A DNA stretch of 64,000 nt from Methylocystis iwaonis (lineage in GTDB: Bacteria; Pseudomonadota; Alphaproteobacteria; Rhizobiales; Beijerinckiaceae). A model generated the notes under the pieces. The model worked only from the letters and a program-made list of their open reading frames with translations, had not been told where the DNA came from and did not search any database. How positions within the stretch are numbered: the stretch's first letter is position 1; every line of letters begins with the position of its first letter. The position numbers were made by a program, and so were the translations under genes. The DNA is taken from positions 124,001 through 188,000 of the forward strand of contig NZ_AP027144.1 of the NCBI RefSeq assembly GCF_027925385.1. Direction: 5' to 3'. This document shows, piece after piece, positions 6,973-27,573 of the stretch.

Positions 6973-7015
6973 CCTGCTCCCGACTTTCATACAGCGGCGA
7001 GTTGAGTCCTTTGGG
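6973..7015 (+). repeat. Second IS3-type end in direct orientation
   Basis: These 43 bases (starting ACCTGCTCCCGACTTTCAT) resemble the end of the IS3 element at 5858-5900 in the same orientation, with about 80% identity by eye. They abut the truncated orfA. The simplest reading is the left end of another related IS3 copy, the rest of which has been deleted. Confidence 0.5.
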
Positions 7016-7184
7016 TTGTTGAAGCGCATGGGAATGGAACCGCGCCGTAAAAACGCCGATGCTCAATATTTCGGCGAAGTGCTTTATATATGTAATTGAA
7101 ATACATAACGCGTAGACTTCAGATGCGCCGGCCGCCGGTCGAGATCTTCCGTTCCCGGATCGGCGACGATAAGGGGTGAACACA

Positions 7185-12059: not shown

Positions 12060-12596
12060 CTAGCGCGGTAGAAGATGCCCTATGCTGCGCTCTACCGCCA
12101 AAGCAATGCGCGCCTCGAGTCCCTCGTTGCTGACCTCGTAATTTGTGAAATCGCCGTCATTTGCAAAAACGCCGATCGGCAGTGTCAAGGACTGGAAGAA
12201 GCTGAACAGCGGTCGAAGCTGATGATCAATGACCAACGCATGGCGATCGCTGCCCCCGCAAGCCGAGAGCAAGACGGGCTTACCGATCAAGGCTTCGTGG
12301 TCTATGAGATCGAAGAGATGCTTGAAAAGCCCAGTGTAGGATCCCCGATAGACCGGCGTCGAAACCACGAGCGCGTCTGCCGACTCAATTCTACGGATTG
12401 CTTCGGCGATGAGCGGGGGCGCGCCTTTCGGAGAGAGGACGCCGCCTAGTTCGGGGGCCAGATCGGCGATCTCTACGGAATGGATGTCGAAAGGTCCGTG
12501 ACTGGCGAGCTTTCTCGCAATGGTGGCGGCGAGGGCAGCCGAGCGTGAAGGCCGACTCAAGCCGCCCGAGACTGTGACAAGTTTCACTATGCTCAT
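12060..12596 (-). CDS. msuE: NAD(P)H-dependent FMN reductase, MsuE/SsuE type
   Basis: A 178-residue flavodoxin-fold reductase. The phosphate-binding loop VSGGLSRPSRSA, the STPVYRGSYTGLFKHLFDL block and the SACGGSDRHALVIDHQLRPLF region match the MsuE/SsuE/SfnF family. These enzymes reduce FMN with NAD(P)H and hand FMNH2 to two-component monooxygenases such as SsuD, MsuC and SfnG, all encoded within 7 kb. It is the last gene of the minus-strand operon, 24 bases after ribBA. The island has only this one reductase, so it probably serves all three monooxygenases. Confidence 0.9.
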   Translation of the reverse strand: MSIVKLVTVSGGLSRPSRSAALAATIARKLASHGPFDIHSVEIADLAPELGGVLSPKGAPPLIAEAIRRIESADALVVSTPVYRGSYTGLFKHLFDLIDHEALIGKPVLLSACGGSDRHALVIDHQLRPLFSFFQSLTLPIGVFANDGDFTNYEVSNEGLEARIALAVERSIGHLLPR

Positions 12597-12620: not shown

Positions 12621-13856
12621 TCAGGCGTTTTGGAGTTGAGCCAAGGCGGAAGAGGCGACTCGAGTGAGGTCGAGTTGATGACGCATCCGTCGGCTCTTGG
12701 TTTCCAAATAGCGGATGTTTTCATGCGTTGCCGCCGCATGGAGAGACACAACCTCCTTGACTGCGACGCCCAGCGACGTCAGCGCTTCTGTCTTGGCGGG
12801 ATTGTTGGTCATCAGGCGGACGCTGGTCACGCCAAGGAGACTCAGGATTCCCGCCGCGGCGGCATAGCTTCTGCCGTCGACCGGCAAACCGAGCATCAAA
12901 TTCGCATCGACTGTGTCCGCTCCTTGATCCTGTAGCTCGTACGCGCGTAATTTTTGCGTCAGTCCAATCCCCCGCCCCTCGTGGCCTCGGAGATATATCA
13001 AGACTCCTCTGCCCTCCTGCGCGATACGCTCCAACGCGAGATTAAGCTGGGATCCGCAATCGCATCGCAGGGAGCCAAGAAGGTCGCCCGTCAGGCACTC
13101 TGAATGCATTCTGACCAACGTACCGTCCCCTTCGACTGGCCCCATGACAATCGAAAGGTGTTCTGCCCCGTCCGCAGCTCTGAAAATATGGGCGGTAAAA
13201 TCGCCATGACGCGTCGGCAAACGTGAAACGGATATGCGCTTGGGCAGCTCATTTTGCTTTTGCCGATAGGCGATGAGATCACCAACTGTGATTATTGGAA
13301 GTTCATGACGTTTCGCGAATTCGATTAGCTCCGGCCGCCGCGCCATTTCGCCGTCGTCGCGAACGATTTCACAGAGTGCGCCAACGGGCGCGAATCCGGC
13401 GAGGGAGGCGAGTTCGCTGGCCGCCTCAGTATGCCCAGGGCGACCGAGGATACCATCAGGGTGTCGCCGCAGAGGAAAGACATGGCCTGGACGCAGGAAA
13501 CTGTCAGCCCCTCTCGCCGAGGAGCCAAGCGCGCGCACGGTGGCGCTCCTTTCGCTCGCGGAGATGCCGGTGGTAGAGCCCTGAAGATCGACCGAGACTG
13601 TAAAGGCGGTGCCATACGCGTCGTCGCTCCGAGGAACCATCAATGGAAGCTCCAAGCGGTCCGCCCATTCATTCGGCATGGCGACGCAGACGACGCCACT
13701 CGAATGACGAACGAGAAACGCCATTGCTTCCGCCGTCATTTTCTCCGCGGGGAGAATGAGGTCGCCCTCGTTCTCCCGGCTCTCGTCGTCAACGACGACG
13801 ACAAATCGCCCGAGCCGTTGCGCCTCGATCGCCTGCTCAATTGTCGAAAAACTCAT
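12621..13856 (-). CDS. ribBA: Bifunctional riboflavin synthesis enzyme RibBA
   Basis: A 411-residue fusion. The N-terminal DHBP synthase (RibB, about 1-200) has DDESRENEGDLI, TGISASERSATV, FPLRRHPDG and GHTEAASELA. The C-terminal GTP cyclohydrolase II (RibA, about 210-400) has the zinc-ligand cysteines in CLTGDLLGSLRCDCG, the RGHEGRGIGL loop and RLMTNNPAK. It makes both precursors of riboflavin, from ribulose-5-phosphate and GTP. ATG 13856 follows GGACGAAGG; the extension to 13901 is rejected. It is placed between the monooxygenase genes and msuE, 10 bases after the acyl-CoA-dehydrogenase-like gene, so it is probably induced with them to meet FMN demand rather than being the housekeeping copy. 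Confidence 0.95.
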   Translation of the reverse strand: MSFSTIEQAIEAQRLGRFVVVVDDESRENEGDLILPAEKMTAEAMAFLVRHSSGVVCVAMPNEWADRLELPLMVPRSDDAYGTAFTVSVDLQGSTTGISASERSATVRALGSSARGADSFLRPGHVFPLRRHPDGILGRPGHTEAASELASLAGFAPVGALCEIVRDDGEMARRPELIEFAKRHELPIITVGDLIAYRQKQNELPKRISVSRLPTRHGDFTAHIFRAADGAEHLSIVMGPVEGDGTLVRMHSECLTGDLLGSLRCDCGSQLNLALERIAQEGRGVLIYLRGHEGRGIGLTQKLRAYELQDQGADTVDANLMLGLPVDGRSYAAAAGILSLLGVTSVRLMTNNPAKTEALTSLGVAVKEVVSLHAAATHENIRYLETKSRRMRHQLDLTRVASSALAQLQNA

Positions 13857-13866
13857 GCCTTCGTCC

Positions 13867-15036
13867 TTAGGAATAAAAGGAAGGCGTTGGATAGACGCCA
13901 TTCAGCGCCCAATCGCCGATTTCTTTGAGTTTGTGATCGAGCGGATCATGCAGCGTATGCGTTCGCGCATTTCGCCAGAAACGGTCCAGCCGAAGGCGCG
14001 CCGTCGTCGCTCTAGCCCCCATCACATCGAACACACGGCTACCGACCTCGAGCGCTGCACGCGACCCAACGACTTTCGCGCTGGCGATCTCAATCGCCAA
14101 GGCGCCCCGCTCATCGGCCGAGATGGCGTCGCGCCTCGACCATGCATGTTGAAAGGCGGCTACTGCGTTGCTAGCAAGAGCTTCCGCAGCTTTAACCTGC
14201 GCCGTGAGTTCACCGAGCGTATGTAGGTTGAATGGATCCGAGCCGATGCGAGCGGCGCCGTCCGCGGGCAGGCCAAGGATATATGCAATTGCTTCACTGA
14301 GCGCGCCACGCGCGAGTCCCGTGTAGATGTTGACGAGAATGAGCTGGGCTAGACAGGGCCGCAAGGCGCCAAAGGGTGAACCGAGCGGCCCGGGCGAAAG
14401 GAGGAGCTCGTCCGAAGTCACGCTGACATTCGAGAAGGAAACCGAGCCGCTATCGGTCTGCCGTTGTCCCATATTGTCCCAATCATGATGAACGGTAACT
14501 CCCGCTCGCCGCGTCGGGAAGGCGGCGACTTTGAGTTTGCCATCTACATCATGCGCGGAAACGATGAGCATGTCAGAATCAGTTGCGCCCGAGCAGAAGC
14601 TCTTTTCGCCGTCGAGTCGAAATCCGTCTGCGTCAGCCCACAACTTGAGGCGCGCATCCTTCGGATTGAGCGCGTTGCCCCAAAACCAATTCTCGCGCGC
14701 GCTGCACGCCATCAGATTGCGGGACTGTTCGGCAGAGCCGAAAAATTGTAGCGTCGCGATCATGAGATGATGAAACGCAAAGAGATGCGCGAGCGAACTA
14801 TCAACCGCGGCGATCTTTCTGACGATCTCGAAAATGTTGATCCAGTCGGCCCCAGCCCCCCCGAGTTCCTTCGGAATCGACAGTTGCAGCAACCCGCTCT
14901 CACGAATGAAATCGCGTTCGCGCTTCGCCGTCCCGCCTTCACGATCGCGCTCGGCGGCCGTCTTCGCTAAAGCGAAGAGAAGCTTGTCGAGAACCGCTGC
15001 TTCGTCGCGAGCGTCGCGGCTTGAAGATCTCGTCAT
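13867..15036 (-). CDS. msuC: FMNH2-dependent monooxygenase of acyl-CoA dehydrogenase fold (MsuC/SfnB/DszC type)
   Basis: A 389-residue protein of acyl-CoA dehydrogenase fold. KSFCSGATDSDML, DWDNMGQRQTDSGSVSF, GARATTARLRLDRFWRN and ARTHTLHDPLDHK are characteristic of the DszC/MsuC/SfnB branch, which uses FMNH2 and O2 rather than dehydrogenating acyl-CoA. MsuC of Pseudomonas oxidises methanesulfinate to methanesulfonate. ATG 15036 has a good site (GGAGAAAAGAG); the longer frame to 15270 overlaps the upstream ssuD gene and is rejected. It begins 13 bases after ssuD, so the two steps are coupled in the operon. The exact substrate cannot be separated from other sulfinates or sulfur heterocycles by sequence alone. 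Confidence 0.8.
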   Translation of the reverse strand: MTRSSSRDARDEAAVLDKLLFALAKTAAERDREGGTAKRERDFIRESGLLQLSIPKELGGAGADWINIFEIVRKIAAVDSSLAHLFAFHHLMIATLQFFGSAEQSRNLMACSARENWFWGNALNPKDARLKLWADADGFRLDGEKSFCSGATDSDMLIVSAHDVDGKLKVAAFPTRRAGVTVHHDWDNMGQRQTDSGSVSFSNVSVTSDELLLSPGPLGSPFGALRPCLAQLILVNIYTGLARGALSEAIAYILGLPADGAARIGSDPFNLHTLGELTAQVKAAEALASNAVAAFQHAWSRRDAISADERGALAIEIASAKVVGSRAALEVGSRVFDVMGARATTARLRLDRFWRNARTHTLHDPLDHKLKEIGDWALNGVYPTPSFYS

Positions 15037-15049
15037 CTCTTTTCTCCGC

Positions 15050-16231
15050 TTATACGGCCGATGGCGCCGCGGCGGACGAGGTCTTCGCGGTCGCGGCGAT
15101 GCTTCCGAACGGGCCGGTAATTTTGCGACCCGGCAGAACCCCACGGGGACCAATCCCAAACCTCGGGAAAAGTAATTCGGCAAAGCGATAGGCTTCTTCC
15201 AAATGAGGATAGCCCGACAGCACAAAGCTATCGACGCCGAGCGCTTGATATTCGCGCAGCCGGGCCTCAATTTGATCGGGATTTCCGACGAGGGCCGTCC
15301 CGGCGCCGCCGCGCTTCAGGCCTACGCCGGCCCAGAGGTTTGGACTGACCTCGAGATCCTCCCGCGCGCGGCCTGCGCCTTTCCGCAATTGCAACATGCG
15401 TTGCTGGCCCACGGAGTCCATGCGTTCGAAGGTCGAGAGCGCGTCTTTAACCGCCGCGTCATCAAGCCGGCTGATCAACTGCTCTGCGGCATGCCAGGCT
15501 TCTTCTTCCGTTTCCCTTACAATCACATGCAGGCGAACCCCGAAGCGCAAGGTGCGCCCATATTGCGCGGCGCGCGCCTTGACGTCGGCAATTTTTTCAG
15601 CAACCGCGGCCGGCGGCTCGCCCCATGTGAGATAAGCGTCCACCGATCGGGCGGCGAGATCATGCGCCGGCGCCGACGAACCCCCGAAGTAAAGCGGCGG
15701 CCTTGGCTGCTGTACCGGCGGGAATAGAAGCTTACCTCCTTCAATCGAGAAGAACTCGCCCTGAAAGTTCACGCTACCTTCCACGTGGCTCGCGCGTAAA
15801 ATTTCATCCCAAGCGTCGACGAATTCAGCGGAGAGGGCGTAGCGTTGCGCATGATCCAAAAACAGACCGTCTCCTGCGAGTTCCTCCGGATCGCCGCCAG
15901 CCACGAGATTGATTAGCAGCCGACCCTGCGAAAGACGATCTAGCGTCGCCGTCATACGCGCGGCGAGCGCTGCTTGCATGAGGCCAGGTCGCAGCGCGAC
16001 AAGGAACCGAAGGTTTCGAGTCGAGCTGATGAGGCTAGAGGCTACAATCCATGGATCTTCACATGAGCGACCACTCGGGATCAAAACGCCATAGTAGCCC
16101 AGATTATCCGCAGCGATTGCGATTTGCTGATTATATTCAAAGTTCGCCGTACGGGCGCCTTCCTCCGCGCCGAGATACCGAGAGTCGCCATGCGTCGGAA
16201 TGTACCACAATATTTCCATGATGCGTTCCAT
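15050..16231 (-). CDS. ssuD: FMNH2-dependent alkanesulfonate monooxygenase (SsuD/MsuD)
   Basis: A 393-residue bacterial-luciferase-family enzyme that splits alkanesulfonates into aldehyde and sulfite using FMNH2 and O2. Diagnostic blocks are [16 protein letters not shown] at the N-terminus, [31 protein letters not shown] and [20 protein letters not shown] at the C-terminus. ATG 16231 or 16219 are both possible; neither has a strong ribosome site, and the longer start at 16276 lies only about 15 bases from the predicted promoter -12 element. It is the first gene downstream of a sigma-54 promoter and a palindromic site (16291-16369). With SfnG and an MsuC-type enzyme present, methanesulfonate (MsuD activity) is the likely substrate. 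Confidence 0.93.
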
Positions 16232-16290
16232 GATCGAGGGGAAGGCCTGCAGCCGCCGCGATTGTTGCCTGAGCATTCCAGGCTATTGGC

Positions 16291-16305
16291 GCAAGACTTG
16301 GGCCA
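16291..16305 (-). promoter_or_regulatory. Predicted sigma-54 promoter of the ssuD operon
   Basis: Read on the minus strand: TGGCCCAAGTCTTGC, matching the -24/-12 consensus TGGCACG-N4-TTGC with the invariant GG and GC exactly 10 bases apart. It lies about 60 bases upstream of the ssuD start and just downstream of the palindromes at 16317-16369. The cognate activator gene is in the window (20902-22890). Confidence 0.75.
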
Positions 16306-16316
16306 GCATCGAAACC

Positions 16317-16369
16317 TTGCAATTGCGGGAGGAATCAATATGCGCTGCTGCAAATGCAGCAGCGCATAT
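16317..16369 (-). promoter_or_regulatory. Palindromic activator site upstream of ssuD
   Basis: Two palindromes. The large one (16338-16369) has perfect 15-base arms, ATATGCGCTGCTGCA and its complement, around AA. Its core GCTGCTGCAAATGCAGCAGC (16344-16363) is identical to that at 17405-17424. A smaller one, TTGCAATTGC (16317-16326), also recurs at 17442. The spacing between centres is about 32 bases here and 33 at the other copy. This is a likely upstream activating sequence for the sigma-54 regulator. As an alternative, the large palindrome could form a hairpin after the amidohydrolase gene. Confidence 0.65.
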
Positions 16370-16400
16370 CGGGCCTCTGCGGCGCCTGCAACAGTAGCGC

Positions 16401-17276
16401 CTATGCGATATCGAGGCCCAAGACTCTGACCGCGTTGCGCCATGCAACCTTCTCCGCAATTTCATCTGGCAGACGAAGCCCCGCGAACTCCGTGATGCTC
16501 TGCCCGATCGGTCGGAACGGGTAAGACGAACCGAACAGAAGCTGGTCGCTCAGAAATCCCTTTGCAGCCTCGGCATAACGCTTGCCGCCCGGCGCAAAGA
16601 GATACATGTCGGGGGAAACGAAAACATTTTCATGCCGGAACGCCACGCCAAGCATGGCATCGATCTGCGGATAGAAGGCATGACAGCAGATGAGCGAGAG
16701 ATTGGGAAAAGCCCTCGCGACCCGGTCGACAGCAAGCGGGTCATTGTGCCGCAAATCGGGTGTGGTCGGACCTGACATCAAAAACACCGGCGCATTCTCC
16801 TTTTCGCAAGCCGCATAGATCGGAAAGAGCGTTTCGTCGTCATGAGCGATCGGCCGACCGTAAAAACCGGGATCCACATTGATGCCGATCAACTGCAGGG
16901 AATCCAAGCAACGGTGAACCTCTCGAACCGCCTCGTCGCCTGGAAGCGCCTGAGGATCAACCGAACCAACGCCGAGAAGACGCCCCGCGGAGCGTTGAGA
17001 TAATCCCGAAAGCGCATCGTTCGAAATTCGCACCTGCGGCGTGCTTCGGCCGACCATGATCGCGACGTCGATCGACGCCTGCTCGATCTCTTTTATGAAC
17101 GACGGCAAATCAGGCGACCGCGTGAAGTGGTCTATATCCCTCGAGCCCAAGCGCCGATTGACCCAGCGAACTGTCTCAAATTCCGGGGAAGACGGATCCG
17201 CCCCGAAGAATGGATGAAGAAAAGAGGGCCGCGCGCGCATGTCCACGACATGCCGCGTCAATTTTTGTGAAGTCAT
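16401..17276 (-). CDS. Amidohydrolase-2 family protein with altered metal site
   Basis: A 291-residue TIM-barrel protein of the amidohydrolase-2 group (QLIGINVDPGFYGRPI, LICCHAFYPQIDAMLGVAF, QLLFGSSYPFRPI). The metal-binding HxH normally near the N-terminus reads DMRARP, and the usual Asp of GSDYPF is Ser, so two metal-ligand positions appear lost; it may act without metal or on an unusual substrate. ATG 17276 has AGAGGCGA upstream. It is transcribed from its own predicted sigma-54 promoter (17339-17354) and lies directly upstream of ssuD. Similar proteins are found beside sulfonate genes in other proteobacteria, but no reaction is assigned to them that I know of. Confidence 0.75.
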   Translation of the reverse strand: MTSQKLTRHVVDMRARPSFLHPFFGADPSSPEFETVRWVNRRLGSRDIDHFTRSPDLPSFIKEIEQASIDVAIMVGRSTPQVRISNDALSGLSQRSAGRLLGVGSVDPQALPGDEAVREVHRCLDSLQLIGINVDPGFYGRPIAHDDETLFPIYAACEKENAPVFLMSGPTTPDLRHNDPLAVDRVARAFPNLSLICCHAFYPQIDAMLGVAFRHENVFVSPDMYLFAPGGKRYAEAAKGFLSDQLLFGSSYPFRPIGQSITEFAGLRLPDEIAEKVAWRNAVRVLGLDIA

Positions 17277-17338: not shown

Positions 17339-17354
17339 AGCAAGCATGGCGCCG
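17339..17354 (-). promoter_or_regulatory. Predicted sigma-54 promoter of the amidohydrolase gene
   Basis: Minus strand CGGCGCCATGCTTGCT: GG and GC are 10 bases apart and the -12 TTGCT is perfect, while the -24 element matches less well (GGCGC for GGCAC). It would give a leader of about 50 bases before ATG 17276. The 17404-17425 palindrome centre lies about 62 bases upstream. Confidence 0.6.
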
Positions 17355-17403: not shown

Positions 17404-17453
17404 TGCTGCTGCAAATGCAGCAGCATAACCGGCGCCCGTTGTTGCAATTGCAA
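17404..17453. promoter_or_regulatory. Palindromic activator site between divergent operons
   Basis: TGCTGCTGCA and its complement flank AA (17404-17425), sharing a 20-base identical core with the site upstream of ssuD. A perfect 12-base palindrome TTGCAATTGCAA follows at 17442-17453. Both lie between the leftward promoter (17339-17354) and the rightward one (17509-17524) and could serve both. Confidence 0.65.
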
Positions 17454-17508
17454 ATTACGCCGCTCGAAGGTCGGGGTCATCCCATTGATTTTACGCAGTC
17501 ATAAGCTT

Positions 17509-17524
17509 TGGCACGCCGCCTGCT
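17509..17524 (+). promoter_or_regulatory. Predicted sigma-54 promoter of the sfnG operon
   Basis: TGGCACGCCGCCTGCT is nearly a perfect -24/-12 element: TGGCACG, four bases, then CTGCT, with the key GG and GC 10 bases apart. It predicts a start near 17535 and a leader of about 85 bases before sfnG. Confidence 0.85.
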
Positions 17525-17618
17525 GTTACCGACTGACACACAGGCCGCTCCTCCTCAAGCGCGTAGCGCATGAAGCCGCGGTACGGATTCCATGCGGCTC
17601 TCACGAAAGGAGACGGTT

Positions 17619-18734
17619 ATGACTGGCGCGTCCTCGCCTTCATCGCAGCAGGATACACAACCCATTAAATTCGCCTATTGGGTTCCCAATGTTTCCGGCG
17701 GTCTCGTGATCAGCAAGATCGAACAGCGGACAAGTTGGGATATCGACTACAACCGAAAGCTTGCTCAGATCGCGGAAGCCTCCGGCTTCGAATATGCTCT
17801 AACGCAAATTCGCTTCACTGCGGGATATGGAGCAGAGTATCAACACGAATCTGTAAGTTTCTCCCATGCTCTGCTTGCCGCGACGGAAAAACTCAACGTC
17901 ATCGCCGCAATTTTGCCGGGTCCTTGGCATCCCGCGGTGATCGCGAAGCAAGTGGCGTCGATCAGCCAATTTACCGGTGGTCGGCTTGCGGTGAATATAG
18001 TTTCAGGATGGTTTCGCGGTGAGTTTCAGGCGATCGGCGAACCTTGGCTAGATCATGACGAGCGTTATCGCCGTTCAGAGGAATTCATCCGAGTCCTTCG
18101 TGGCGTCTGGTCCGAGGATAATTTCACCTTCGCGGGGGACTTTTATCGCTTCCGCAATTACACATTGAAACCCAAACCTTCATCCCCGCCGGAAGTCTTC
18201 CAGGGCGGCAGCTCCCGCGCCGCCCGCGACATGGCGTCGCGTGTGTCCGATTGGTATTTCACCAACGGCAACACGGTCGAGGGCGTCAAGAAGCAGGTCG
18301 ACGACATCCGCGCCAAGGCGGCTCAGAGCGGCCATCATGTAAAGATCGGCGTCAACGCTTTCGCAATCGTAAGGGCGACGAAGGAAGAGGCGAACGAGGT
18401 CCTCGACGAGATCTTGTCTGGCGCTGATCCTGAGGCCGTGCGCGCGTTCCAACACGAAGTGCAGAACGCCGGCAATGCTTCCCCCGAGCGCGAGGGCAAC
18501 TGGGCGAAATCGTCATTCGAAGATCTGGTGCAATACAACGACGGCTTCAGGACAAATCTCATCGGCGCGCCTGACGAAGTGGCGCAACGCATAGTCGAAC
18601 TGAAATCCGTCGGCGTCGATCTCGTTCTCCTTGGCTTCCTGCACTTCCAAGAGGAAGTCGAGTTTTTTGGCAAGCACGTGATCCCCTTGGTGCGTGCCTT
18701 GGAAGCAAAAGAAGCGGCGCGGACCGCCGCCTGA
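17619..18734 (+). CDS. sfnG: Dimethylsulfone (DMSO2) monooxygenase SfnG
   Basis: A 371-residue flavin-dependent monooxygenase of the luciferase fold. The start KFAYWVPNVSGGLVISKIEQRT, FEYALTQIRFTAGYGAEYQHES, EVFQGGSSRAARDMASRVSDWYFTNGNTVEG and SFEDLVQYNDGF match SfnG of Pseudomonas closely throughout, so the assignment is strong. SfnG uses FMNH2 and O2 to convert dimethylsulfone to methanesulfinate and formaldehyde. ATG 17619 follows an excellent AAAGGAG site. It is the first gene of the rightward operon under a predicted sigma-54 promoter. In a methylotroph the released formaldehyde could also serve as carbon or energy source. Confidence 0.95.
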   Translation: MTGASSPSSQQDTQPIKFAYWVPNVSGGLVISKIEQRTSWDIDYNRKLAQIAEASGFEYALTQIRFTAGYGAEYQHESVSFSHALLAATEKLNVIAAILPGPWHPAVIAKQVASISQFTGGRLAVNIVSGWFRGEFQAIGEPWLDHDERYRRSEEFIRVLRGVWSEDNFTFAGDFYRFRNYTLKPKPSSPPEVFQGGSSRAARDMASRVSDWYFTNGNTVEGVKKQVDDIRAKAAQSGHHVKIGVNAFAIVRATKEEANEVLDEILSGADPEAVRAFQHEVQNAGNASPEREGNWAKSSFEDLVQYNDGFRTNLIGAPDEVAQRIVELKSVGVDLVLLGFLHFQEEVEFFGKHVIPLVRALEAKEAARTAA

Positions 18735-18787
18735 ACCCGGCAAGCATGCCGGGCAAAGCGCATATCTCCCTAGGAAGGCGTGAAAAC

Positions 18788-19969
18788 ATGTCGGACAATA
18801 AAAAAGAGGCTTTCGCGAAACTCGACGACGTCATCGAGAAGGTCGTGGCAGCCAATGCGGAACGCAACGATGAGCAATCCATCTTTCCTAGGGAAAACCT
18901 GGATGCGCTCGCGGTCGCAGGTTGGACGCGTGTCTTGATCCCCGAGGAATATGACGGACTGGGCTTCGATCACCTGGCCTTTTCCGAGGCGGCATACCGT
19001 ATCGGACAAAAGGACGCCTCGACCGGGCTCGTCTATGTCATGCATGTCGGCGCCGCTCAGACGCTCAATCTCTATGGCACGCATGATCAGAAGTTGCGCT
19101 GGTTGAAACCGCAAAATGGCAAGCATTTGCTCGGCACCTATTCGACGAGCGAACGCGCCTCAGGTGGCCATTGGTGGTATAATTTTTCGGAAGCATCCCG
19201 CGATGGCAGTGACTATATCGTCAACGCGGAAAAGTCCTTCACCACCTCCGCGGGCAAGGCGGATTACTACATCACGCAAACGCGCACGCCTGGCGCACGT
19301 GACCAATCCGACATCTCTTTCTTCATCGTGGATAGCGCGACGCCTGGAATCACGCCTGGTCCGTGGAACGCGTTGGGCGTGCGTGGCAATCACTCTGGCC
19401 CCATTCGATATGACGGCGTGAAAGTGCCGCAACGGGATCGGCTTGGCGCGGAAAACCAGGGAAAAGACATTATCTACAACGGCGTTTCGCCGGTCTATCT
19501 GATCGGACTCGGCGCTGTTTGGGAGGGCGTCGCCCGCGGCGCCTATGATACGGCGGTCGCGCACATCAAGAACTCGATCCATAGGGACACCAACAAGCGT
19601 CTCGCGGATTATCAGGCGGTCAGACAAGAACTCGCAAAAGCGAAAGTCCAGATCGAGTCGCTTGGCCCCTGGCGCCGCGAGCTCGCCGCGCGGCTCGACG
19701 CGCTGTGGCGCGCCAACGCTCCACAAGCCGAGCTGTTGATAGCTCTGACGGAATTCAAAGTCCACGCTTCGGAAATCGCGAATCTTTCCGCTGGCGCGGC
19801 CCTCACTGTCACTGGAGGATATGGGTACAAGAAGGGCGCCTTGGAGCGCTATTTCCGCGACGCCCGGGCCGGCATCGGAATGGGACCCTCCAACATCATC
19901 GCGCGGGACTGGATCGGCAAGGCATCCGTGGGGCTGCCCTTGGAGTTGTTCTACGAAAACGGTGAATAA
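18788..19969 (+). CDS. Acyl-CoA dehydrogenase-fold monooxygenase, SfnB-like
   Basis: A 393-residue flavoprotein with the three-part acyl-CoA dehydrogenase layout: N-terminal helices, a central beta domain (TYSTSERASGGHWWYNFSEA, KSFTTSAGKADYYITQTR) and a C-terminal helical domain (LSAGAALTVTGGYGYKKGALERYFRDARAGIGMGPSN). It belongs to the SfnB/DszC-neighbour group found with sulfur-acquisition genes, but differs clearly from the paralogue at 13867-15036. ATG 18788 has AGGAAGG upstream. It lies 53 bases after sfnG and probably acts on a related organosulfur intermediate or accepts FMNH2; the substrate is unknown. Confidence 0.75.
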   Translation: MSDNKKEAFAKLDDVIEKVVAANAERNDEQSIFPRENLDALAVAGWTRVLIPEEYDGLGFDHLAFSEAAYRIGQKDASTGLVYVMHVGAAQTLNLYGTHDQKLRWLKPQNGKHLLGTYSTSERASGGHWWYNFSEASRDGSDYIVNAEKSFTTSAGKADYYITQTRTPGARDQSDISFFIVDSATPGITPGPWNALGVRGNHSGPIRYDGVKVPQRDRLGAENQGKDIIYNGVSPVYLIGLGAVWEGVARGAYDTAVAHIKNSIHRDTNKRLADYQAVRQELAKAKVQIESLGPWRRELAARLDALWRANAPQAELLIALTEFKVHASEIANLSAGAALTVTGGYGYKKGALERYFRDARAGIGMGPSNIIARDWIGKASVGLPLELFYENGE

Positions 19970-20048: not shown

Positions 20049-20882
20049 ATGAAAGAACTCGCGTTCTTATCGTTCGCGGTATACGCTCTCGCATCCAACG
20101 TTGCGTCGGGAGCGGATCTGCCGAGCAAGAAGCTTGCGCCCCCGCTACCTGCCGTCGCCGTCGATGATTATCAACCGTTCCAAATTCGCTTGCGTGCGAC
20201 GGCGCTCATCCCCGACGGCTCCTTTACGATTTTCGATCGTTACGGAATTGTGCCCAGCGGCACAGGCATCGTGTCGGGCGTGCCTGGCGGAAAGATTTTT
20301 GGGGCCGGCGTGGATGTATCGAACTCGGTTATTCCGGAGATCGATCTCAGCTATTATTTCAATAAGAATTTCGCCGTCGAAACCATCGCGGGATATACGC
20401 GGCATAAGCTGACGGCGACAGGTCCGCTCGCCAATATCCCCGTTGGCTCGACAAACCTGCTCCCGGTGTCCTTACTCGCGCAATATCACTTCACTAATCT
20501 CGGCGCGTTTCAACCCTATATCGGCGTCGGCGTCACTTGGGCCGTGCCTTACGCTTATGGGCCCGGAAACGGCTGGACCCCGCTCGTCACCGCGCTTGGC
20601 TTCACCGGATTCAATTCTGTGCGAGATTTGCAAATCGGCCAATCCGTCGGTGTGGCCGGTCAAATTGGGTTCGATTATATGATCACGCCAAATATTGGCA
20701 TAAACGTCGATCTTAAACGCATCATGGCTCAGCCCACAGCCTACGCGACGATTTACAACACTGCGCTTAATCAGAATATTTATGTCCGGGTGCAATCCAA
20801 TCTTGACCCATGGCTCGCGAGCGTCGGCGCGACCTTCCGTTTCGGGGGCGCCTCTCCGGCGCCCGTGCTGGCAAAATATTAA
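20049..20882 (+). CDS. ompW: OmpW-family outer-membrane channel
   Basis: A 277-residue protein with signal peptide (to about residue 21, ASNVASGAD) and the OmpW pattern: IRLRATALIPDGS, YYFNKNFAVETIAGYTRH, LPVSLLAQYHF and a terminal ATFRFGG strand pair. OmpW forms an eight-stranded barrel with a hydrophobic lateral exit used by small apolar solutes. A ribosome site AAGGAAAGAG precedes ATG 20049. It is the last gene of the sfnG operon, 79 bases after the dehydrogenase-like gene, so it may admit sulfones or sulfides. Unlike typical OmpW it has a longer central region (about 110-200). Confidence 0.85.
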   Translation: MKELAFLSFAVYALASNVASGADLPSKKLAPPLPAVAVDDYQPFQIRLRATALIPDGSFTIFDRYGIVPSGTGIVSGVPGGKIFGAGVDVSNSVIPEIDLSYYFNKNFAVETIAGYTRHKLTATGPLANIPVGSTNLLPVSLLAQYHFTNLGAFQPYIGVGVTWAVPYAYGPGNGWTPLVTALGFTGFNSVRDLQIGQSVGVAGQIGFDYMITPNIGINVDLKRIMAQPTAYATIYNTALNQNIYVRVQSNLDPWLASVGATFRFGGASPAPVLAKY

Positions 20883-20890
20883 GGAGGCGT

Positions 20891-20913
20891 CGCGGCTCGC
20901 TCTACGAGCCGCG
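20891..20913. terminator. Hairpin between convergent ompW and regulator genes
   Basis: CGCGGCTCG and CGAGCCGCG form a perfect nine-base stem with a five-base loop CTCTA. It sits just after the ompW stop and overlaps the last codons of the convergent regulator gene. No T-tract follows, so it may act as a Rho-assisted or RNA-stabilising hairpin. Confidence 0.5.
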
Positions 20914-22890
20914 CCACACCGCATCGGCAATAGCGGCTCGGGCGGGCAATTGGCCCGAGCTGAGGTAAGCGTCAGCGATTGCTTGCTGCTCCTCGATGAT
21001 CTCATCGTCGAGAGGCTGCGGTCGGAACTCTAGCCGATTCAAATGACGCTCTGCGGCAGAGTGGTCGAGGTTCAAGCAACGGGCAATCGCCCTGAGATCG
21101 TTTGGCTGGCGGTCCGCTCGGCTCGCGCCCAGGGCACGAATCTCCGTGAAGATCGCTTCGATAATTTGTGGATGCCCGACGGCGAATAAGCGGCGCGCAA
21201 CATAGAATTGTCGATTTACGACATGTTCTGAGCCATCGAGGAGAATTCGCGCGGCGTCATTGTCCCGCGCCACACTCAGGAGGGGCTCCCAAATCCCCCA
21301 GGCGTGGATAGCGCCGCCTTTGAGGTCGTCGAGCAAATCGAGACTGGGAGGGATGTATATTGGTTCAATATCCGCGCGCGAAAGCCCCCTCCTCTTCAGG
21401 GCCGTCATCAGGAAATAATCCGCATTCGACCAGCGGCTGAACGCGACTTTTTTTCCTCTCAAATCGTCGACGGTGCGGATGTTTCGATCTGCGACGACAA
21501 TCGCGACGTCGCTGGGCGCCGGTGGCTCGAATCCTACGTAGAAGAATGACACCCCCATAGCGACGGCGAACACGGTTGCTGCTTCGCCGGTAACGCCAAA
21601 ATCAATCTCACCGCGGCCTATTGCATCGAGTATGTCGGGCCCGGAATTGAACTCCCGCCATTCAGCGTGAAAGCCCAAGGACGCCAATCTGGCGTCGAGA
21701 GAGCCTAATGCTTTCAGGGCCGCGAGAGTGCCGAATTTCTGATAGCCCAGCCGGGTGACATTTACGTCTCTATCTCGGAATGAGCCCGTTTTCCCGGTCG
21801 GCGCACGGAATTTCTTGCGTGGTGCTATCATGCCCATATGAGCAAGATGCGTGCGCAATGCGTTGCGTGTCAGTCCGAGCTTTTCAGCGGCGTGCACTTG
21901 ATTTCCGCCCTCGCGTTGGAGTGCGGTTGAGACAAGCGACCGAGTAACGAGCTCGAAAAGATTTGTTTCACCCCGAGAAATGGCCCCCTCGAAGAGTTGG
22001 CGAAGTTGTTCTTCGAAATCTATCGATGGTTCGAATTGAGCAGCCGCCGACTCGACGATCGGCACGTGCTGAACGAGCGAGCCATTCGTTAGTAGAAGTG
22101 CGTTGTGTAGAACGTTCTCAAGTTCGCGAATATTCCCAGGCCAACTATAATTCATCAGCTTTCGTAGCGCGTCAGGGGTCAGCTCGACATCACGTCGACC
22201 AAGCTTCTCTCCGTAAAGCTTTAGAAAGTATTCAGCTAGCGGCTTGACGTCCCCTTTTCGCGCGCGTAATGGCGGCAAATGAATCGTCGCGACATTCAAC
22301 CGGTAGAATAGGTCGTTGCGAAAGGTCTTCGCTTGCACGGCCGCATCAAGATTGACGTTGGTCGCAGCGATGAGCCGAACATCAATTGGACGCGGGCGAC
22401 GTGAACCGACACGAACGATTTCTCGCTCTTGCAAGACGCGCAACAACTTCACTTGCATGGGCGGCGGGAGGTCTCCGATCTCGTCAAGAAGCAGCGTGCC
22501 TCCGTTGGCGGCCTCGAACCAACCCATCTCTGTCTTCAAGGCGCCCGTGAACGCTCCTTTCTCATGCCCGAATAGTTCGGCTTCGATGAGCGTTTCACTG
22601 AACCCCCCGCAATTCACGGCAAGGAATGGTCCGTTTTTACGCTTGCTGTGGGCATGAATGTAACGTGCGACCAGCTCCTTTCCGGTCCCAGTCTCTCCGA
22701 TGACCAAAACGGTGGCGTCACTTGGCGCGACTCGGAGGATGTCATCCTTCATCTGCAGCGACAATGGATCTTCGAACACAATCGCAGTGGCGCGACTTGT
22801 GGCGCCGCGTGGCACGCCGGAGACGGTCTCCACGCCCGCCCGGCTCTTGTCCTGAACCACAACAGAGAGGGACGAGGGGTCGCAAGCCAT
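20902..22890 (-). CDS. Sigma-54 activator fused to an SsuA-like ligand-binding domain
   Basis: A 662-residue one-component regulator. After a short N-terminus the AAA+ sigma-54 domain (about 37-275) has Walker A GETGTGKE, the GAFTGA loop that contacts sigma-54 (112-117), and Walker [13 protein letters not shown] Fis-type helix-turn-helix follows (about 345-372, [20 protein letters not shown]). The C-terminal half (about 393-620) is an SsuA/NMT1-like periplasmic binding-protein fold without a signal peptide: [66 protein letters not shown]. It thus probably senses an aliphatic sulfonate or sulfone in the cytoplasm. ATG 22890 has GGAG upstream. It converges on the sfnG operon and likely acts at the palindromes at 16338 and 17404. 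Confidence 0.9.
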
Positions 22891-23355: not shown

Positions 23356-25908
23356 TCACAATTCGCCGCGCAGCGTCACCATGAAGTTCCGTGGATCGCC
23401 CGGCGTGTTGTAAGTGTTGGCGCCGCCGACGCGCATGTAATATTTCTGGTCGGTTATGTTGTTGAGATTGAACTGCAGCGTCAGATGGTCGTTGATCTTG
23501 TACGACGTCATCGCATTGATGACGGCATAGGCCGGCCCATGGCGGGCCTCGTTCAATGTATTGATCGCGCCGGACAGCCCGCTCTCCGCGACGACGCCTG
23601 CGCCGATCGTCAGCCCTTTCCACTCCCCCTCGAAATCATATTTGCCCCAGATCTTGAACATATGGGTCGGATACCACGAACTGATCGGACGCCCTGGACT
23701 GTTTTTGTCTACGAGGAGCTTCGTGCGCAGATAGGTATAGCCTCCGACGACGTCGAGCCCTGGCAACGGACTTTGGATGATTGGCAGTTCGATATCCGCA
23801 AGAGGCTTCCCGGAGAATTCTACTTCGACGCCAGTGGATTCTGCCTTGCCGGCTTGGAGATAGTAGCCCGGGTTGGCGGGATCCGCGTAAGGACGATTTC
23901 GGTCGTTGATCTCGAACCACGCGGCCGAGGCGTTGAGCTTCTTGTTCAGGAACTCGCCTTTGACGCCGGCTTCGAACTGTCCGCCGACCTCCGGATCGAG
24001 TGTCGCTCCGTCAGCTTTCTGTTTCGTCTGCGGAATAAAAATATCCGAGTAGCTGCCATAGATATTGATTTCATCAGTCACCCGGAAAATGCCGGCGAGA
24101 TAGGGAGAGAAGCGGTGGTTGGACTTCGCGCCATATGACCAATTTGTAGGCGCACTCGGAAAAACGTTGCGGTTCTTGGCAAAGAAATTCGTCAATCGAC
24201 CGCCGAAGACGAAAGTCAATGGCTCGATCGGCGTCAAGCGGAGTTGGCTATAGGCTCCGTGCTGCAAAGTTTGATTCTGACCGCCCGCCGTAAAGGGGTT
24301 GAGATTCGGACCGATTGCATTCGGCCAAAAGACGGGGATGTTGTTCACATAGACGCGCGGGGCACCCTTATATTCATAAGTGAACCGGTCGTAGTTATAG
24401 CCGATGGTCAATGTGTTCTTGATCATCGCCCAAGGCAGCGTGCCGGACAGATAGGAGTCGAGACCCGTACGATGATAATAATACATGTAATGGCGGCGCG
24501 CATATTGCGCCGTCCAATTGGAAGGATTGACACCGCTGCTTGGATAGGCGTCCGCGAATTCGTCGTTTATGTCGCGTCGATTGAAATTCACCTTCGCCAC
24601 CCAGTCGTCACCGAACCGATGTTCTAGACGGACATTCTTGTCCTCCGTGTCCCATTTGACTTGGGTCCAATCTGGATAGGGATTCCAGGACCTGGGCACA
24701 TTGAGGAAATAGGGGCTCGTCCCGCCGAAATAAGAAAGCGAAGCGACCGGTTGCCCGCTGTAGGCGGGGTCACTGGTGCGCTGGCGTGTGTAGGCGACGT
24801 TCAGCAGCGTATTGGGCGTGATGTCATATTCGAGCGAGCCATAGCCCAGCCATTTGTCTTCAGGCTGCGACGGCGTGAAGAAGAAGTGCTTGTCCTGGTG
24901 GAGCACCAGCGCGCGATAGCGAAGGGTCCGCTCTTCGTTTATCGGGCCTGTCACATCGATTACGCCACGATAATTATCCCACGAACCGGCGCTGAATTCC
25001 GATCTGAGCTTGAATTCGTCCTGCGGCCGTTTTCTCACAATATTGACGACTCCCCCTGGATTTCCTGATCCAGAGAGCAGGCCCGACGGACCTTTCAACA
25101 CTTCGATGCGATCGTAGACAGCGAGATCCAGCTGCTGATAGCCGGCAAGACCATCGTAGGTCGGGACGCCGTCATAAGCGACGTCGAGCGTGTAGCCCCG
25201 TGAGGCCGGCCATCCTTGCGTAGCGTCGTTAGCAATCGTCGAGACACCGGGCACCCAGAACATCGCATCCTGCACGGTGGTGAGCTGCATGTCAGTCATC
25301 TGTCCCCTCGTCATCACCGAGACAGACTGCGGTATCTCCTTTCTGGGCAGCGGCACCTTGCCGGCGACCGTCACGAGCGGCGTCGTGTAGGTCCGCGTTC
25401 CTTCGGTGATAGCGCCGCGGTCGGCGCTATAGGCCTTCTTGTCGTCCGGGCTCGTCGCATCGACGTCGGTCCGCTTCGTCGCGCCCACGTCGATCGGCGG
25501 CAGCGCCTGGAATCCCGCGTCACTGCGCGCGCCCCTATCGTTCTGGGCGAGAATGATCGACACCGCCTTTTCGTCCGGCCCCCCGAAGCGATAGGACAGA
25601 CCGGTTCCCTCGAGCAGCCTATCGAGCCCTTCGCGCATCGAGAAAGCTCCAGAAAGCCCCGTCGTGCGTAGCATCCGCGTCACGCGCGCATCGTAGAGCA
25701 GATGCAGCCCGTTCTTCACGGCGAAGGCGTTCAAAGCCGTCGCCACCGATCCTGCGGGAATGTCGTAGACCATTACGACGCCGCTACGCTCTTGCGGCGA
25801 GAGGGACGCCTCCGCAGGTGTTCCTCCCAACGCGAAGGCGCCGAAGGTCATTGCCGCAATTGTCGAACCCAACGCCGCACCCTCGTAACACAGACCTTTT
25901 TTCGTCAT
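23356..25908 (-). CDS. TonB-dependent transducer (FpvA/FecA class) with STN domain
   Basis: An 850-residue outer-membrane receptor. A signal peptide (about 1-35) is followed by an STN signalling domain (about 45-115: YDIPAGSVATALNAFAVKNGLHLLYDARV), a plug (about 170-300, with RIEVLKGPSGLLSGSGNPGGVVNIVRKRP) and a barrel ending NFMVTLRGEL. The STN domain passes substrate binding to the FecR protein at 26037-26981, which frees the sigma factor at 27073-27573; both lie just upstream in the same orientation. Ferric siderophore uptake is the commonest role, but in methanotrophs such FecI-FecR-receptor sets (MbnIRT type) also import copper-methanobactin. No mbn biosynthesis gene is visible here, so the ligand stays open. 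Confidence 0.93.
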   Translation of the reverse strand: MTKKGLCYEGAALGSTIAAMTFGAFALGGTPAEASLSPQERSGVVMVYDIPAGSVATALNAFAVKNGLHLLYDARVTRMLRTTGLSGAFSMREGLDRLLEGTGLSYRFGGPDEKAVSIILAQNDRGARSDAGFQALPPIDVGATKRTDVDATSPDDKKAYSADRGAITEGTRTYTTPLVTVAGKVPLPRKEIPQSVSVMTRGQMTDMQLTTVQDAMFWVPGVSTIANDATQGWPASRGYTLDVAYDGVPTYDGLAGYQQLDLAVYDRIEVLKGPSGLLSGSGNPGGVVNIVRKRPQDEFKLRSEFSAGSWDNYRGVIDVTGPINEERTLRYRALVLHQDKHFFFTPSQPEDKWLGYGSLEYDITPNTLLNVAYTRQRTSDPAYSGQPVASLSYFGGTSPYFLNVPRSWNPYPDWTQVKWDTEDKNVRLEHRFGDDWVAKVNFNRRDINDEFADAYPSSGVNPSNWTAQYARRHYMYYYHRTGLDSYLSGTLPWAMIKNTLTIGYNYDRFTYEYKGAPRVYVNNIPVFWPNAIGPNLNPFTAGGQNQTLQHGAYSQLRLTPIEPLTFVFGGRLTNFFAKNRNVFPSAPTNWSYGAKSNHRFSPYLAGIFRVTDEINIYGSYSDIFIPQTKQKADGATLDPEVGGQFEAGVKGEFLNKKLNASAAWFEINDRNRPYADPANPGYYLQAGKAESTGVEVEFSGKPLADIELPIIQSPLPGLDVVGGYTYLRTKLLVDKNSPGRPISSWYPTHMFKIWGKYDFEGEWKGLTIGAGVVAESGLSGAINTLNEARHGPAYAVINAMTSYKINDHLTLQFNLNNITDQKYYMRVGGANTYNTPGDPRNFMVTLRGEL

Positions 25909-26036
25909 CGCCGCTTTCCACCGAATGTGCCCCGGCCGTCTCCGCCCGTGACCAACTCGACGCTCTCATGACGATTTCGGAATGTGGGTTGACAAAAAAG
26001 ATTTCGGGAAATGCGGGCGGCTCTTGGTCCGGTGCG

Positions 26037-26981
26037 TCACTCGGTTAGAAAAATCAGGTAATTCGTGAGATGGATCGCGCGCAGGCCGAGGAAAAATTCG
26101 ATCTCGCGCAGCGTCGTGAGCGGCTCGGCGGTCGAGAAGACGCCGCTCACCCGTCGCGCGCAGGTCGAGGCGCGCAGGCAAAACACATATCCATAGCGAT
26201 AGCGGCCGAGGATCGTGAGCGCCTCGCCGAGCGAACGGTCCTCGACGACAAGCGCGCCGCGCCGCCAGGCTGCGACATTCTCGGCGGCGACGCTCACGGG
26301 CGCCCGCGCCGGCGTATCCGCCTCGTATGAGGTCTCCTGTCTCGTCTCGACGATCAGCCGCTCGCCGCCGCTCGCGACCGCCACCGCATGTTCGCTCACA
26401 GCGACACGCGCGCCGTTTTTCTGGAGCGCGACGTCGAAGGCAGTGCCGAGCGCCGTGACCGTGCCGCCCGCCGCCTCCACGACAAAGGGACGCGAGGCGA
26501 TGGGCGCGACCTCGAACCAGGCCTCTCCCGAGAGCAGCGTCACGCGCCGCAATCCCGCCTCGAAGCGCACGGCGATCGCCGAATGGGAGTCGAGCTCGAC
26601 ACGCGAGCCATCAGTGAGCGTCACCGTCCTGCGTTCCCCGACGCCGGTCGAATAATCAGCCGGATGACGGTTCGCGAATTCGGCGAGCCAACCGAAAAAA
26701 GCGAGAGAGGCGGCGAGCGCAACGCCGGCCGCCGCACGCCAGGTCCGTCGCACGCCGTGTACCTGCCGATAGCGGGCGCGCCGCAGCCCCTGCGCCTTCG
26801 AGAACATTTCAGTAATGTCCGTATAGGCCTGAGCATGGGCGGGATCGGCTGCGAGCCAGGCCTCAAAGGCAATACGGCGCTCGCCGTCGATTTCGCCGGC
26901 CTTTTCCTGCAACCACCATTCGATCGCCGCGTCATGGCCGTCGTCACGGTCGGAGGCGTCATCGTCCATTCTCTTCATCAT
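26037..26981 (-). CDS. fecR: FecR-type anti-sigma regulator
   Basis: A 314-residue inner-membrane protein. The cytoplasmic N-terminal domain (EWWLQEKAGEIDGERRIAFEAWLAADPAHAQAYTDI) binds the sigma factor. One transmembrane helix (about 95-112, AAGVALAASLAFFGWLA) is followed by the periplasmic FecR domain (YSTGVGERRTVTLTDGSRVELDSHSAIAV, VTLLSGEAWFEVA) that contacts the STN domain of the receptor. Start 26981 is chosen for its GGGGGA ribosome site; the frame could extend to 27020. It lies 128 bases before the receptor gene and after the sigma-factor gene, the usual order for cell-surface signalling. Confidence 0.92.
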   Translation of the reverse strand: MMKRMDDDASDRDDGHDAAIEWWLQEKAGEIDGERRIAFEAWLAADPAHAQAYTDITEMFSKAQGLRRARYRQVHGVRRTWRAAAGVALAASLAFFGWLAEFANRHPADYSTGVGERRTVTLTDGSRVELDSHSAIAVRFEAGLRRVTLLSGEAWFEVAPIASRPFVVEAAGGTVTALGTAFDVALQKNGARVAVSEHAVAVASGGERLIVETRQETSYEADTPARAPVSVAAENVAAWRRGALVVEDRSLGEALTILGRYRYGYVFCLRASTCARRVSGVFSTAEPLTTLREIEFFLGLRAIHLTNYLIFLTE

Positions 26982-27072
26982 GCCGACGTCGTCCCCCGCT
27001 CTCGGACAACCTCCACCCATCGCCCAATACGACGCGCGGATGCGAAAAAAGGAAGGTCGAACCGTAAATCTG

Positions 27073-27573
27073 TCATCTGATCGCCGCCCAGCAACGCTGC
27101 ATGGCTATCCTCATATGTTGGCGCACCATGCGCTCTGTGACGCCGAGCCGCCTCGCGACATCCGGGAACGGCATATCCTCGAAGGCGCAGAGCTCGAAGA
27201 CCTCGCGGCAGCGTGGCGGCAGCGCCTCGATCGCCGCGGCGAGACGTTGCGCCCGCCGGTCACGATCGGCGATCTCGTCCTGGGGCGCGTCCCAGCTCGG
27301 CGGATCGCCGAGGATTCGGTCGAAGCTCAGATATTTCGCTTCTGTCCTACGGCGACGCCCGAAGTCGCGCGTCAGATTTGACGCGATCCTCTGGAGAAAG
27401 GCCGGCGGATCGGCGACGTCATCGAACCGGTCGTGGCGCAGCGCGCGCACGAAAGTCTCCTGCAACAAGTCGTGAGCGGCCTCGGAGCCGACGCGACGCG
27501 CCAGATAAGCCGTTAGCGCGTGTCTGTTACGCACGAACAGCTCGTGAATGAGATGGGATTTCTTTTCCGACAT
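27073..27573 (-). CDS. fecI: FecI-type ECF sigma factor
   Basis: A 166-residue ECF sigma factor. Region 2 (ELFVRNRHALTAYLARRVGSEAAHDLLQETFVRAL, then FLQRIASNLTRDFGRRRRTE) and region 4 (AAIEALPPRCREVFELCAFEDMPFPDVARRLGVTERMVRQHMRIAMQRC) are complete. It directs transcription of the TonB receptor when released by FecR. The gene is 91 bases upstream of fecR, same strand. The FecI family's own promoter is often iron-regulated by Fur or RirA; I could not identify such a box with confidence. Confidence 0.93.
   Translation of the reverse strand: MSEKKSHLIHELFVRNRHALTAYLARRVGSEAAHDLLQETFVRALRHDRFDDVADPPAFLQRIASNLTRDFGRRRRTEAKYLSFDRILGDPPSWDAPQDEIADRDRRAQRLAAAIEALPPRCREVFELCAFEDMPFPDVARRLGVTERMVRQHMRIAMQRCWAAIR

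Follow-up and report, generated by a model that had tools for sequence, protein, structure and literature searches.

In a 64,000-nucleotide stretch of the Methylocystis iwaonis contig NZ_AP027144.1 (positions 124,001 to 188,000 of the forward strand; hereafter the window), a regulatory gene near sfnG encodes an AAA+ sigma-54 activator that continues, behind its DNA-binding part, into an SsuA-like solute-binding protein (SBP) domain. The protein is probably a sigma-54 activator of SfnR-like type whose C-terminal SsuA-type domain acts as a cytoplasmic sensor, an organosulfur ligand of which would turn on genes for the desulfurization of sulfones and sulfonates. The AAA+-Fis-SBP architecture had been noticed in an earlier note on this DNA and was confirmed; the sensor role that we infer for the SsuA-like domain is well supported.

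The activator half was found by Pfam and sequence to be complete, as the earlier note had it, with a Fis-type helix-turn-helix (HTH) and the GAFTGA loop in the expected domain. Residues 39-204 matched Sigma54_activat (PF00158; E 2.4e-68, 229.5 bits against a Pfam cut-off of 20.2) and the lid, residues 209-275, matched AAA_lid_14 (PF25601; E 1.2e-19 in Pfam). Among family open reading frames (ORFs) the loop motif G[AS]FTGA was present in 75 of 81, the remaining six, all Kluyvera, having GAFSGA. These six are L034, L041, L042, L045, L049 and L052, which are all of the Kluyvera members, and L094 has GSFTGA. Residues 1-38 were disordered (predicted local distance difference test, pLDDT, below 50) with no domain match, and no other sensor was seen in the regulator by Pfam or the structural model.

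The C-terminal domain was modelled with a pLDDT of 92.7 as an SsuA fold, and its top structure matches in the PDB were SsuA proteins. Sequence matches in the PDB over residues 379-661 were likewise to SsuA of Xanthomonas citri (3e4r, E 1.5e-41) and Escherichia coli (2x26, E 1e-39). NMT1 of Pfam matched residues 419-514 (E 2e-8), and two NCBIfam SsuA models covered nearly the whole domain at scores below their curated cut-offs, namely NF008588 over residues 375-660 (E 1e-49, 169.3 bits against 299) and TIGR01728 over residues 380-660 (E 1e-40, 139.8 bits against 163.5). The SsuA/NMT1-like fold that had been proposed was thus upheld by profile search and modelling, and its extent needed correction, residues 375-660 being longer than the proposed 390-640. 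No model for an AAA+-SsuA fusion was among the listed 25 of 37 NCBIfam matches. Export of the domain is implausible on its placement in the sequence, since it sits behind an AAA+/HTH regulator.

To determine the spread of the architecture, 84,980 species genomes were scanned with a query slice comprising the HTH, the linker and the start of the SBP domain. The scan confirmed 162 relatives, the best 80 of which were used for locus counts; it relied on two short SBP patterns, so that more distant members will have been missed. The fusion is encoded in 78 of these 80 loci, one of them (L034) cut at a contig end, and the two non-fusions, the broken gene of L020 and the free SsuA of L093, were left out of the fusions. 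Three of the fusion loci are from methane-oxidizing bacteria, the Methylocystaceae (59-96% full-length identity to the regulator) and 75 from Enterobacterales (43-47%), including Serratia, Pantoea, Erwinia, Rouxiella, Kluyvera, Klebsiella, Raoultella, Pluralibacter, Lonsdalea and others. A protein search with residues 340-662 against 5.8 billion proteins gave 24 matches, 23 of which also had the sigma-54 domain, from Methylocystis, Serratia and Pantoea, and at least five further fusions were among the 120 matches listed for the activator half. In these searches the candidates sharing the most words with the query were scored, 7994 for the SBP region and 8000 for the activator half. Source names for the fusion matches mostly reflect one half, a single Joint Genome Institute name covering both. 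Another combination was P0019, a 500-residue protein in which an FMN-reductase-like domain (PF03358) is joined to an SsuA-like domain.

This distribution makes it scarcely credible that the gene is an artefact in which two adjacent genes were joined by a read error or frameshift. In favour of such an artefact, 15 of 81 loci (for example, L022 11151-12101) have a free ssuA whose start is no more than 500 bp downstream of the fusion, but the same fusion recurs in 78 of 80 loci, the downstream ssuA is a separate gene, and the fused domains form their own clade. The downstream free ssuA falls outside that clade and had a hydrophobic, signal-like start in the four examined. The regulator itself is a single frame and similar fusions occur in other genomes, which answers the earlier concern over a read error. 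Both halves of the fusion are under purifying selection, as seen from the ratio of non-synonymous to synonymous substitution (dN/dS) in six pairs, two of which share L091: it is 0.039-0.133 in the SBP half, compared with 0.058-0.149 in the activator half. A seventh pair with saturated dS was left out of these ranges.

Conservation in the ligand pocket is consistent with a binding function. The sulfonate contacts described for SsuA are Gln36, Gly68 and Gly86, with Trp185 at the alkyl part (PMC3839906). In an alignment of 88 fusion rows, in which near-copies were included and L095 was retained, the contact Gln was kept in 86 rows (two gaps) and both Gly and the Trp in all 88. The position of Ser141 was Asn in 88 of 88 fusion rows and in 26 of 44 free SsuA proteins. 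At the position of TauA Glu106, the fusions had Val in 84 rows and Glu in four, and Glu was found in 34 of 44 free SsuA proteins; the Val suggests a less polar ligand tail or an altered closure.

Three other roles for the domain were weighed. It may be a structural or docking part, serving oligomerization or partner contact, with the pocket kept by descent. The existence of free activators with no SBP domain would fit this, as would the comparable domain of NrtC, to which the signalling protein PII binds (PMC13249358), but the sulfonate contacts, including the pocket Trp, are kept across the 88 rows more strictly than a scaffold needs, and we regard the docking role as improbable. Even less probable is a cytoplasmic enzyme of SBP fold, comparable to the sulfinate desulfinase DszB and joined to the regulator of its own gene, a candidate rejected on the fold score and a non-conserved cysteine. 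A sensor of sulfur sufficiency, in which sulfate, sulfite or another end product shuts the activator off and the genes are on in starvation, is unlikely, and of the three it deserves the most weight. SsuA-family pockets hold an SO3 group (PMC3839906, PMC6906117), and Acinetobacter genes for dimethyl sulfide degradation were strongly induced on dimethyl sulfide versus sulfate, which was read by the authors as sulfate starvation (PMC13352529). Against it, X. citri SsuA is described as binding alkanesulfonates and not sulfate (PMC3839906), and the contact residues are kept in the fusions. A transport role as the SBP of an adjacent importer was also considered and rejected, no importer gene being annotated in the matching M. 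iwaonis stretch. In the regulator's own genome no protein reached the SsuA cut-off, the best being the two copies of the fused domain (146.7 and 142.5 bits) and the next SsuA-profile matches being weaker (116.5 and 108.9 bits). The absence of a free protein above the cut-off would be in keeping with a ligand, dimethyl sulfone for instance, whose uptake does not depend on SsuABC.

The preferred reading, an activator that senses an organosulfur ligand, also predicts targets for the regulator, and two candidate promoters with operators were found close to it (positions in the table below). An enterobacterial-only matrix run over the 64 kb ranked the sites at 17407 and 16346 first and equal (26.7), followed by 17440 (16.0) and 15381 (14.9), with maxima in ten shuffled windows of 6.9-14.0. 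The sfnG promoter score of 14 was reached by 0 of 2000 random window stretches, and the score of 12.5 on the amidohydrolase side by 1.6% of random stretches. Both sfnG and ssuD carry predicted sigma-54-type promoters with a common operator. The genome encodes rpoN (415 bits against a cut-off of 277.35). Across its 4.48 Mb there are four exact operators, two in the window cluster and two in a second copy of it, and no exact match to the backward control.

Much the same layout was found among relatives. The fusion gene adjoins an SsuD gene in divergent orientation in 73 loci, every one of them enterobacterial, and in all 73 a sigma-54-type promoter (TGGCA[CT]...GC[TA]) faces ssuD with a score of 12.5-14 of 15; simple shuffles of these regions averaged 10.6, and the regulator-facing direction 11.1. 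No shuffle out of 20 matched the ssuD-facing score in 67 of the 73. Taking the two best sites per region, paired palindromes TGYTGCA-NN-TGCARCA lie upstream of the ssuD promoter in all 73, with a spacing of 32 bp in 60 loci and of 31 bp in the other 13 (spacings of 31-33 bp arose in 4.9% of shuffles), and the nearer palindrome begins 77-81 bp before the promoter in every locus. Pairs with at most one and two mismatches made up 58 of the 73, and none of 1460 shuffles. In the Methylocystaceae five copies were compared, those of the window and L009 coming from one genome; in these the distance from operator to sfnG promoter is 67-69 bp (5/5) and to ssuD promoter 56-57 bp (4/5), with sites spaced by 30-33 bp and the second site often poor. 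The distances of 56, 68 and 79 bp are steps of about one helical turn. Autoregulation through a sigma-54 promoter was not supported, the best regulator-facing score being 10.5 in the window and the mean over the 73 enterobacterial loci being 11.1 versus 10.6 for shuffles.

The regulator was said to lie beside sfnG and an ssuD operon, and both neighbours pass their NCBIfam cut-offs. The neighbourhood recurs, as counted over 80 distinct fusion loci, among them the window and G007 but not L095, which is the same locus as L016: ssuD was within reach in 77, an FAD-NAD(P) protein in 70, an NtaA/DmoA-family monooxygenase in 67, MetNIQ-like importer genes in 35-43, free SsuA in 26 and sfnG in 25. An SfnG 68-76% identical to that of the window stands beside the enterobacterial fusion in 21 loci. 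Within the genus the regulator is rare, being encoded in 3 of 37 genomes and in none of 24 other genomes of the order, and sfnG and the regulator are present in the identical 3 of the 61 genomes, own genome included. A 94.6% identical cluster on an M. iwaonis plasmid has its regulator annotated merely as a sigma 54-interacting regulator. On gene content, the predicted regulon would combine oxygenases acting on dimethyl sulfone and methanesulfonate with genes that supply their flavin; use of dimethyl sulfone would recur in the 21 enterobacterial loci, a sulfonate or other substrate being likelier elsewhere.

The most likely mechanism can be outlined as follows. The regulator would bind paired TGYTGCA-NN-TGCARCA operators that lie 56-81 bp from sigma-54 promoters, where it would form an AAA+ ring and remodel the sigma-54 polymerase. 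Predicted targets in the window are sfnG and the operon ssuD - sfnB/dszC-like - ribBA - msuE, whose products together would release the sulfur of dimethyl sulfone and methanesulfonate and provide the reduced flavin. Without ligand, the SsuA domain, held on a linker behind the HTH, would hinder the AAA+ ring or its assembly. Binding of a small organosulfur compound (a sulfone, sulfonate or sulfinate) may then close the domain and free the ring, and the released ring would activate from the paired sites, so that the genes are on when substrate is present. In CmpC, a C-terminal SBP-like domain is described as keeping the nucleotide-binding domains blocked as long as no nitrate is bound (review PMC13249358), a precedent for a cytoplasmic SBP domain that restrains an ATPase.

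Several observations weigh against this reading. The second site of pair B (16378) is weak, with a matrix score of 5.4, and the lone site inside ssuD (15381-15396, 14.9) scores slightly above the shuffled maxima. With one mismatch allowed the genome has eight operator sites versus seven for the backward control, so that only exact sites are informative. The full-length model (mean pLDDT 77.8; predicted template modelling score, pTM, 0.46) predicts no contact between the SBP and AAA+ domains, and at this pTM it carries no information on domain packing. Many close relatives of the activator half have no SBP domain, which makes the domain dispensable for activation as such. Near three of the 80 fusion loci (L014, L034 and L059, with L034 cut by its contig) ssuD was not found, L014 also having no sfnG within the locus. 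Most enterobacterial fusion loci have no sfnG within reach either, and the ligand may therefore differ between groups.

As a marker across relatives the exact operator was rejected, occurring in 7 of 61 genomes, as did the backward control. It was present in two of three genomes with the fusion versus five of 58 without, G007 having the fusion and no exact site. A single exact site therefore proves nothing, and four in one cluster pair are a different matter. Exact operators near sfn genes of SfnR-type genomes (six sites in four genomes) were also set aside, the query genes being unmatched in the 3-kb loci.

Features of the window, with positions on its own numbering
Feature	Position	Strand	Details
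Fusion activator coding sequence	20902..22890	-	single open frame, 662 aa, ATG start; AAA+, Fis HTH, linker, SsuA-like domain
AAA+ sigma-54 interaction domain and lid	22066..22776	-	residues 39-275
GAFTGA loop	22540..22557	-	residues 112-117
Fis-type HTH (HTH_8, PF02954)	21853..21942	-	residues 317-346, E 1.1e-6
Flexible linker	21769..21825	-	residues 356-374, pLDDT <50 in full-length model
SsuA-like solute-binding domain	20911..21768	-	residues 375-660
Operator pair A, site 1	17407..17422	+	exact palindrome TGCTGCAAATGCAGCA, matrix score 26.7
Operator pair A, site 2	17440..17455	+	2 mismatches, 33 bp from site 1, matrix score 16.0
Predicted sfnG sigma-54 promoter TGGCACGCCGCCTGCT	17509..17524	+	score 14 of 15; 69 bp from pair A site 2
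Weaker candidate divergent sigma-54 promoter CGGCGCCATGCTTGCT, toward amidohydrolase	17339..17354	-	score 12.5, 68 bp from pair A site 1
Operator pair B, site 1	16346..16361	-	exact palindrome, matrix score 26.7
Operator pair B, site 2	16378..16393	-	2 mismatches, 32 bp from site 1, weak: matrix score 5.4
Predicted ssuD-operon sigma-54 promoter TGGCCCAAGTCTTGCG	16290..16305	-	score 13 of 15; 56 bp from pair B site 1
sfnG, dimethylsulfone monooxygenase	17592..18734	+	TIGR04021 605.7 bits, cut-off 382.95
ssuD, FMNH2-dependent alkanesulfonate monooxygenase	15050..16231	-	TIGR03565 571.5 bits, cut-off 518.2; start placed by homology, ORF opens at 16276
SfnB/DszC-like flavin oxidoreductase	13867..15039	-	NF043015 2.9e-101, TIGR04022 2.1e-77, both below cut-off
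ribBA-like riboflavin gene	12621..13901	-	same direction as ssuD; NF006803 559 bits, cut-off 569; ribA and ribB domain models exceed their cut-offs
msuE-like FMN reductase	12060..12596	-	178-aa ORF; gene at this place on M. iwaonis plasmid annotated msuE
Amidohydrolase, between the two operators	16401..17276	-	PF04909 9.7e-27
Acyl-CoA-dehydrogenase-like gene, downstream of sfnG	18746..19969	+	Pfam acyl-CoA dehydrogenase domains
OmpW-family outer membrane protein gene, converging on regulator	20049..20882	+	PF03922 4.1e-31

The second copy of the sulfur cluster in the same genome (L009 8361-18000; contig C2:296000-315000) is about 92-95% identical. Its regulator is interrupted by an insertion element carrying a 270-aa transposase ORF, so that the intact regulator is the window copy, and a further copy of the element lies between sfnG and the acyl-CoA-dehydrogenase-like gene. 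The lone operator-like site inside ssuD has a counterpart there (L009 17592). In the window, transposase-like ORFs were seen by eye upstream of the cluster (5874-7029), and a TonB-dependent receptor gene with FecR-like and sigma-factor-like ORFs, also by eye, forms an apparently separate signalling unit at 23356-27573. L014 9068-11056 encodes an orphan regulator, an intact and 96% identical fusion for which sfnG and ssuD were not found in the 20-kb locus. In G007 (L094), an operator-like site at 11477 precedes an acyl-CoA-dehydrogenase-like gene with a promoter-like score of 12.5 at 56 bp, and operator-like sites at 92-124, near the locus edge, have a promoter-like score of 14 at 68 bp; with these extra sites its regulon may be larger. 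No promoter was found for the site pair 4932/4964 of L094, a pairing that was guessed.

The relationship to SfnR was examined in trees of the two halves. These contained 31 fusions, 19 of them enterobacterial, and 43 free activators chosen by similarity to the window regulator and not to the enterobacterial members; the 44 free SsuA proteins of the SBP tree comprise roughly one in three of the 87 listed, with the named ones and some from loci added. Two 67% identical proteins from contigs of about 1.1 kb, P0145 and P0146, were not included. P0146 starts inside the HTH and is therefore a fragment of a fusion, and P0145 probably is as well. In the SBP tree a single branch splits the 31 fusions from the 44 free SsuA proteins (support 100/99.9). 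In the activator tree the same fusions are intermixed with the 43 free activators, SfnR included and placed inside a clade of free activators, and the fusion label needs five changes, at least three of them forced by well-supported branches. Two Pseudomonas proteins named SfnR (366 aa, with no SBP domain) match the activator half at 56-57% identity, in line with the earlier statement that SfnR has no sensory domain, and other free activators are nearer, at up to 62% among the 120 matches listed.

A single origin followed by several losses and a transfer of the SBP module between activators both fit the two trees. More doubtful is a broader proposal, that one old SsuA-activator fusion founded a ligand-sensing class and that sensor-less SfnR arose by repeated sensor loss, or that the domain passed between activators. 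SfnR is controlled through its level by CysB, and if this proposal is true, classical control through expression level alone would be the derived state. Genomes encoding close SfnR relatives (80-83% to the query SfnR) have a sigma-54-type promoter at sfnG in three of three loci, and in two of these, which are close kin, a related palindrome TGTTGCCTGGGCAACA with two mismatches lies 103 bp before it. In two loci from genomes with SfnR relatives (L116 and L120, around 1501), an exact TGCTGCAAATGCAGCA is flanked by two high-scoring sigma-54-like sites (14.5 and 14); a third, free SfnR-like activator is encoded some 9 kb away.

The sensors of bacterial enhancer-binding proteins (bEBPs) are placed at the N-terminus (PMC7175178; PMC12316311), as the earlier note had said of usual activators, and the sensor modules named are CheY-like, PAS, GAF, PRD and V4R (PMC12316311). 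Among the titles and abstract openings of the open-access literature matches listed, an AAA+-HTH-SsuA fusion was not described; as far as these go, what is new here is a sigma-54 activator with a putative new type of sensor in a new position, behind the DNA-binding domain. The family has spread through common Enterobacterales, where databases tend to name members after one half. With a purifiable sensor domain and with operators and promoters predicted to the base, the signal that drives sulfone and sulfonate regulons becomes directly testable, the predicted core regulon in this genome being two promoters. The fusion would also serve as a ready ligand-responsive sigma-54 switch for organosulfur compounds.

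Compared with known systems, the regulator shares parts with several. With SfnR it shares the AAA+ and HTH domains at the identity given above; SfnR stops after the HTH, whereas the regulator continues with a 286-residue SsuA domain. NorR, DmpR/XylR, PrpR and NtrC are bEBPs with N-terminal sensors. The LysR-type regulators CysB and Cbl combine an HTH with an effector domain of SBP fold in sulfur control, but have no AAA+ domain and act at sigma-70 promoters. Like the N-terminal-sensor bEBPs, the regulator belongs among the signal-controlled AAA+ activators of sigma-54 (architecture in PMC7175178); in those the sensor comes before the AAA+ domain, whereas in the fusion that place is taken by 38 disordered residues and the putative sensor is found behind the HTH. 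The C-terminal regulatory domains of the cyanobacterial ABC (ATP-binding cassette) ATPases NrtC and CmpC are among the fold matches of the SsuA-like domain, at 14-17% identity, but control a transporter and not transcription. SsuA and TauA have the same fold, full length and sulfonate-contact residues; they are periplasmic binding proteins, whereas here the domain is fused behind an intracellular regulator, and the TauA Glu106 position, mostly Glu in free SsuA, is mostly Val in the fusions.
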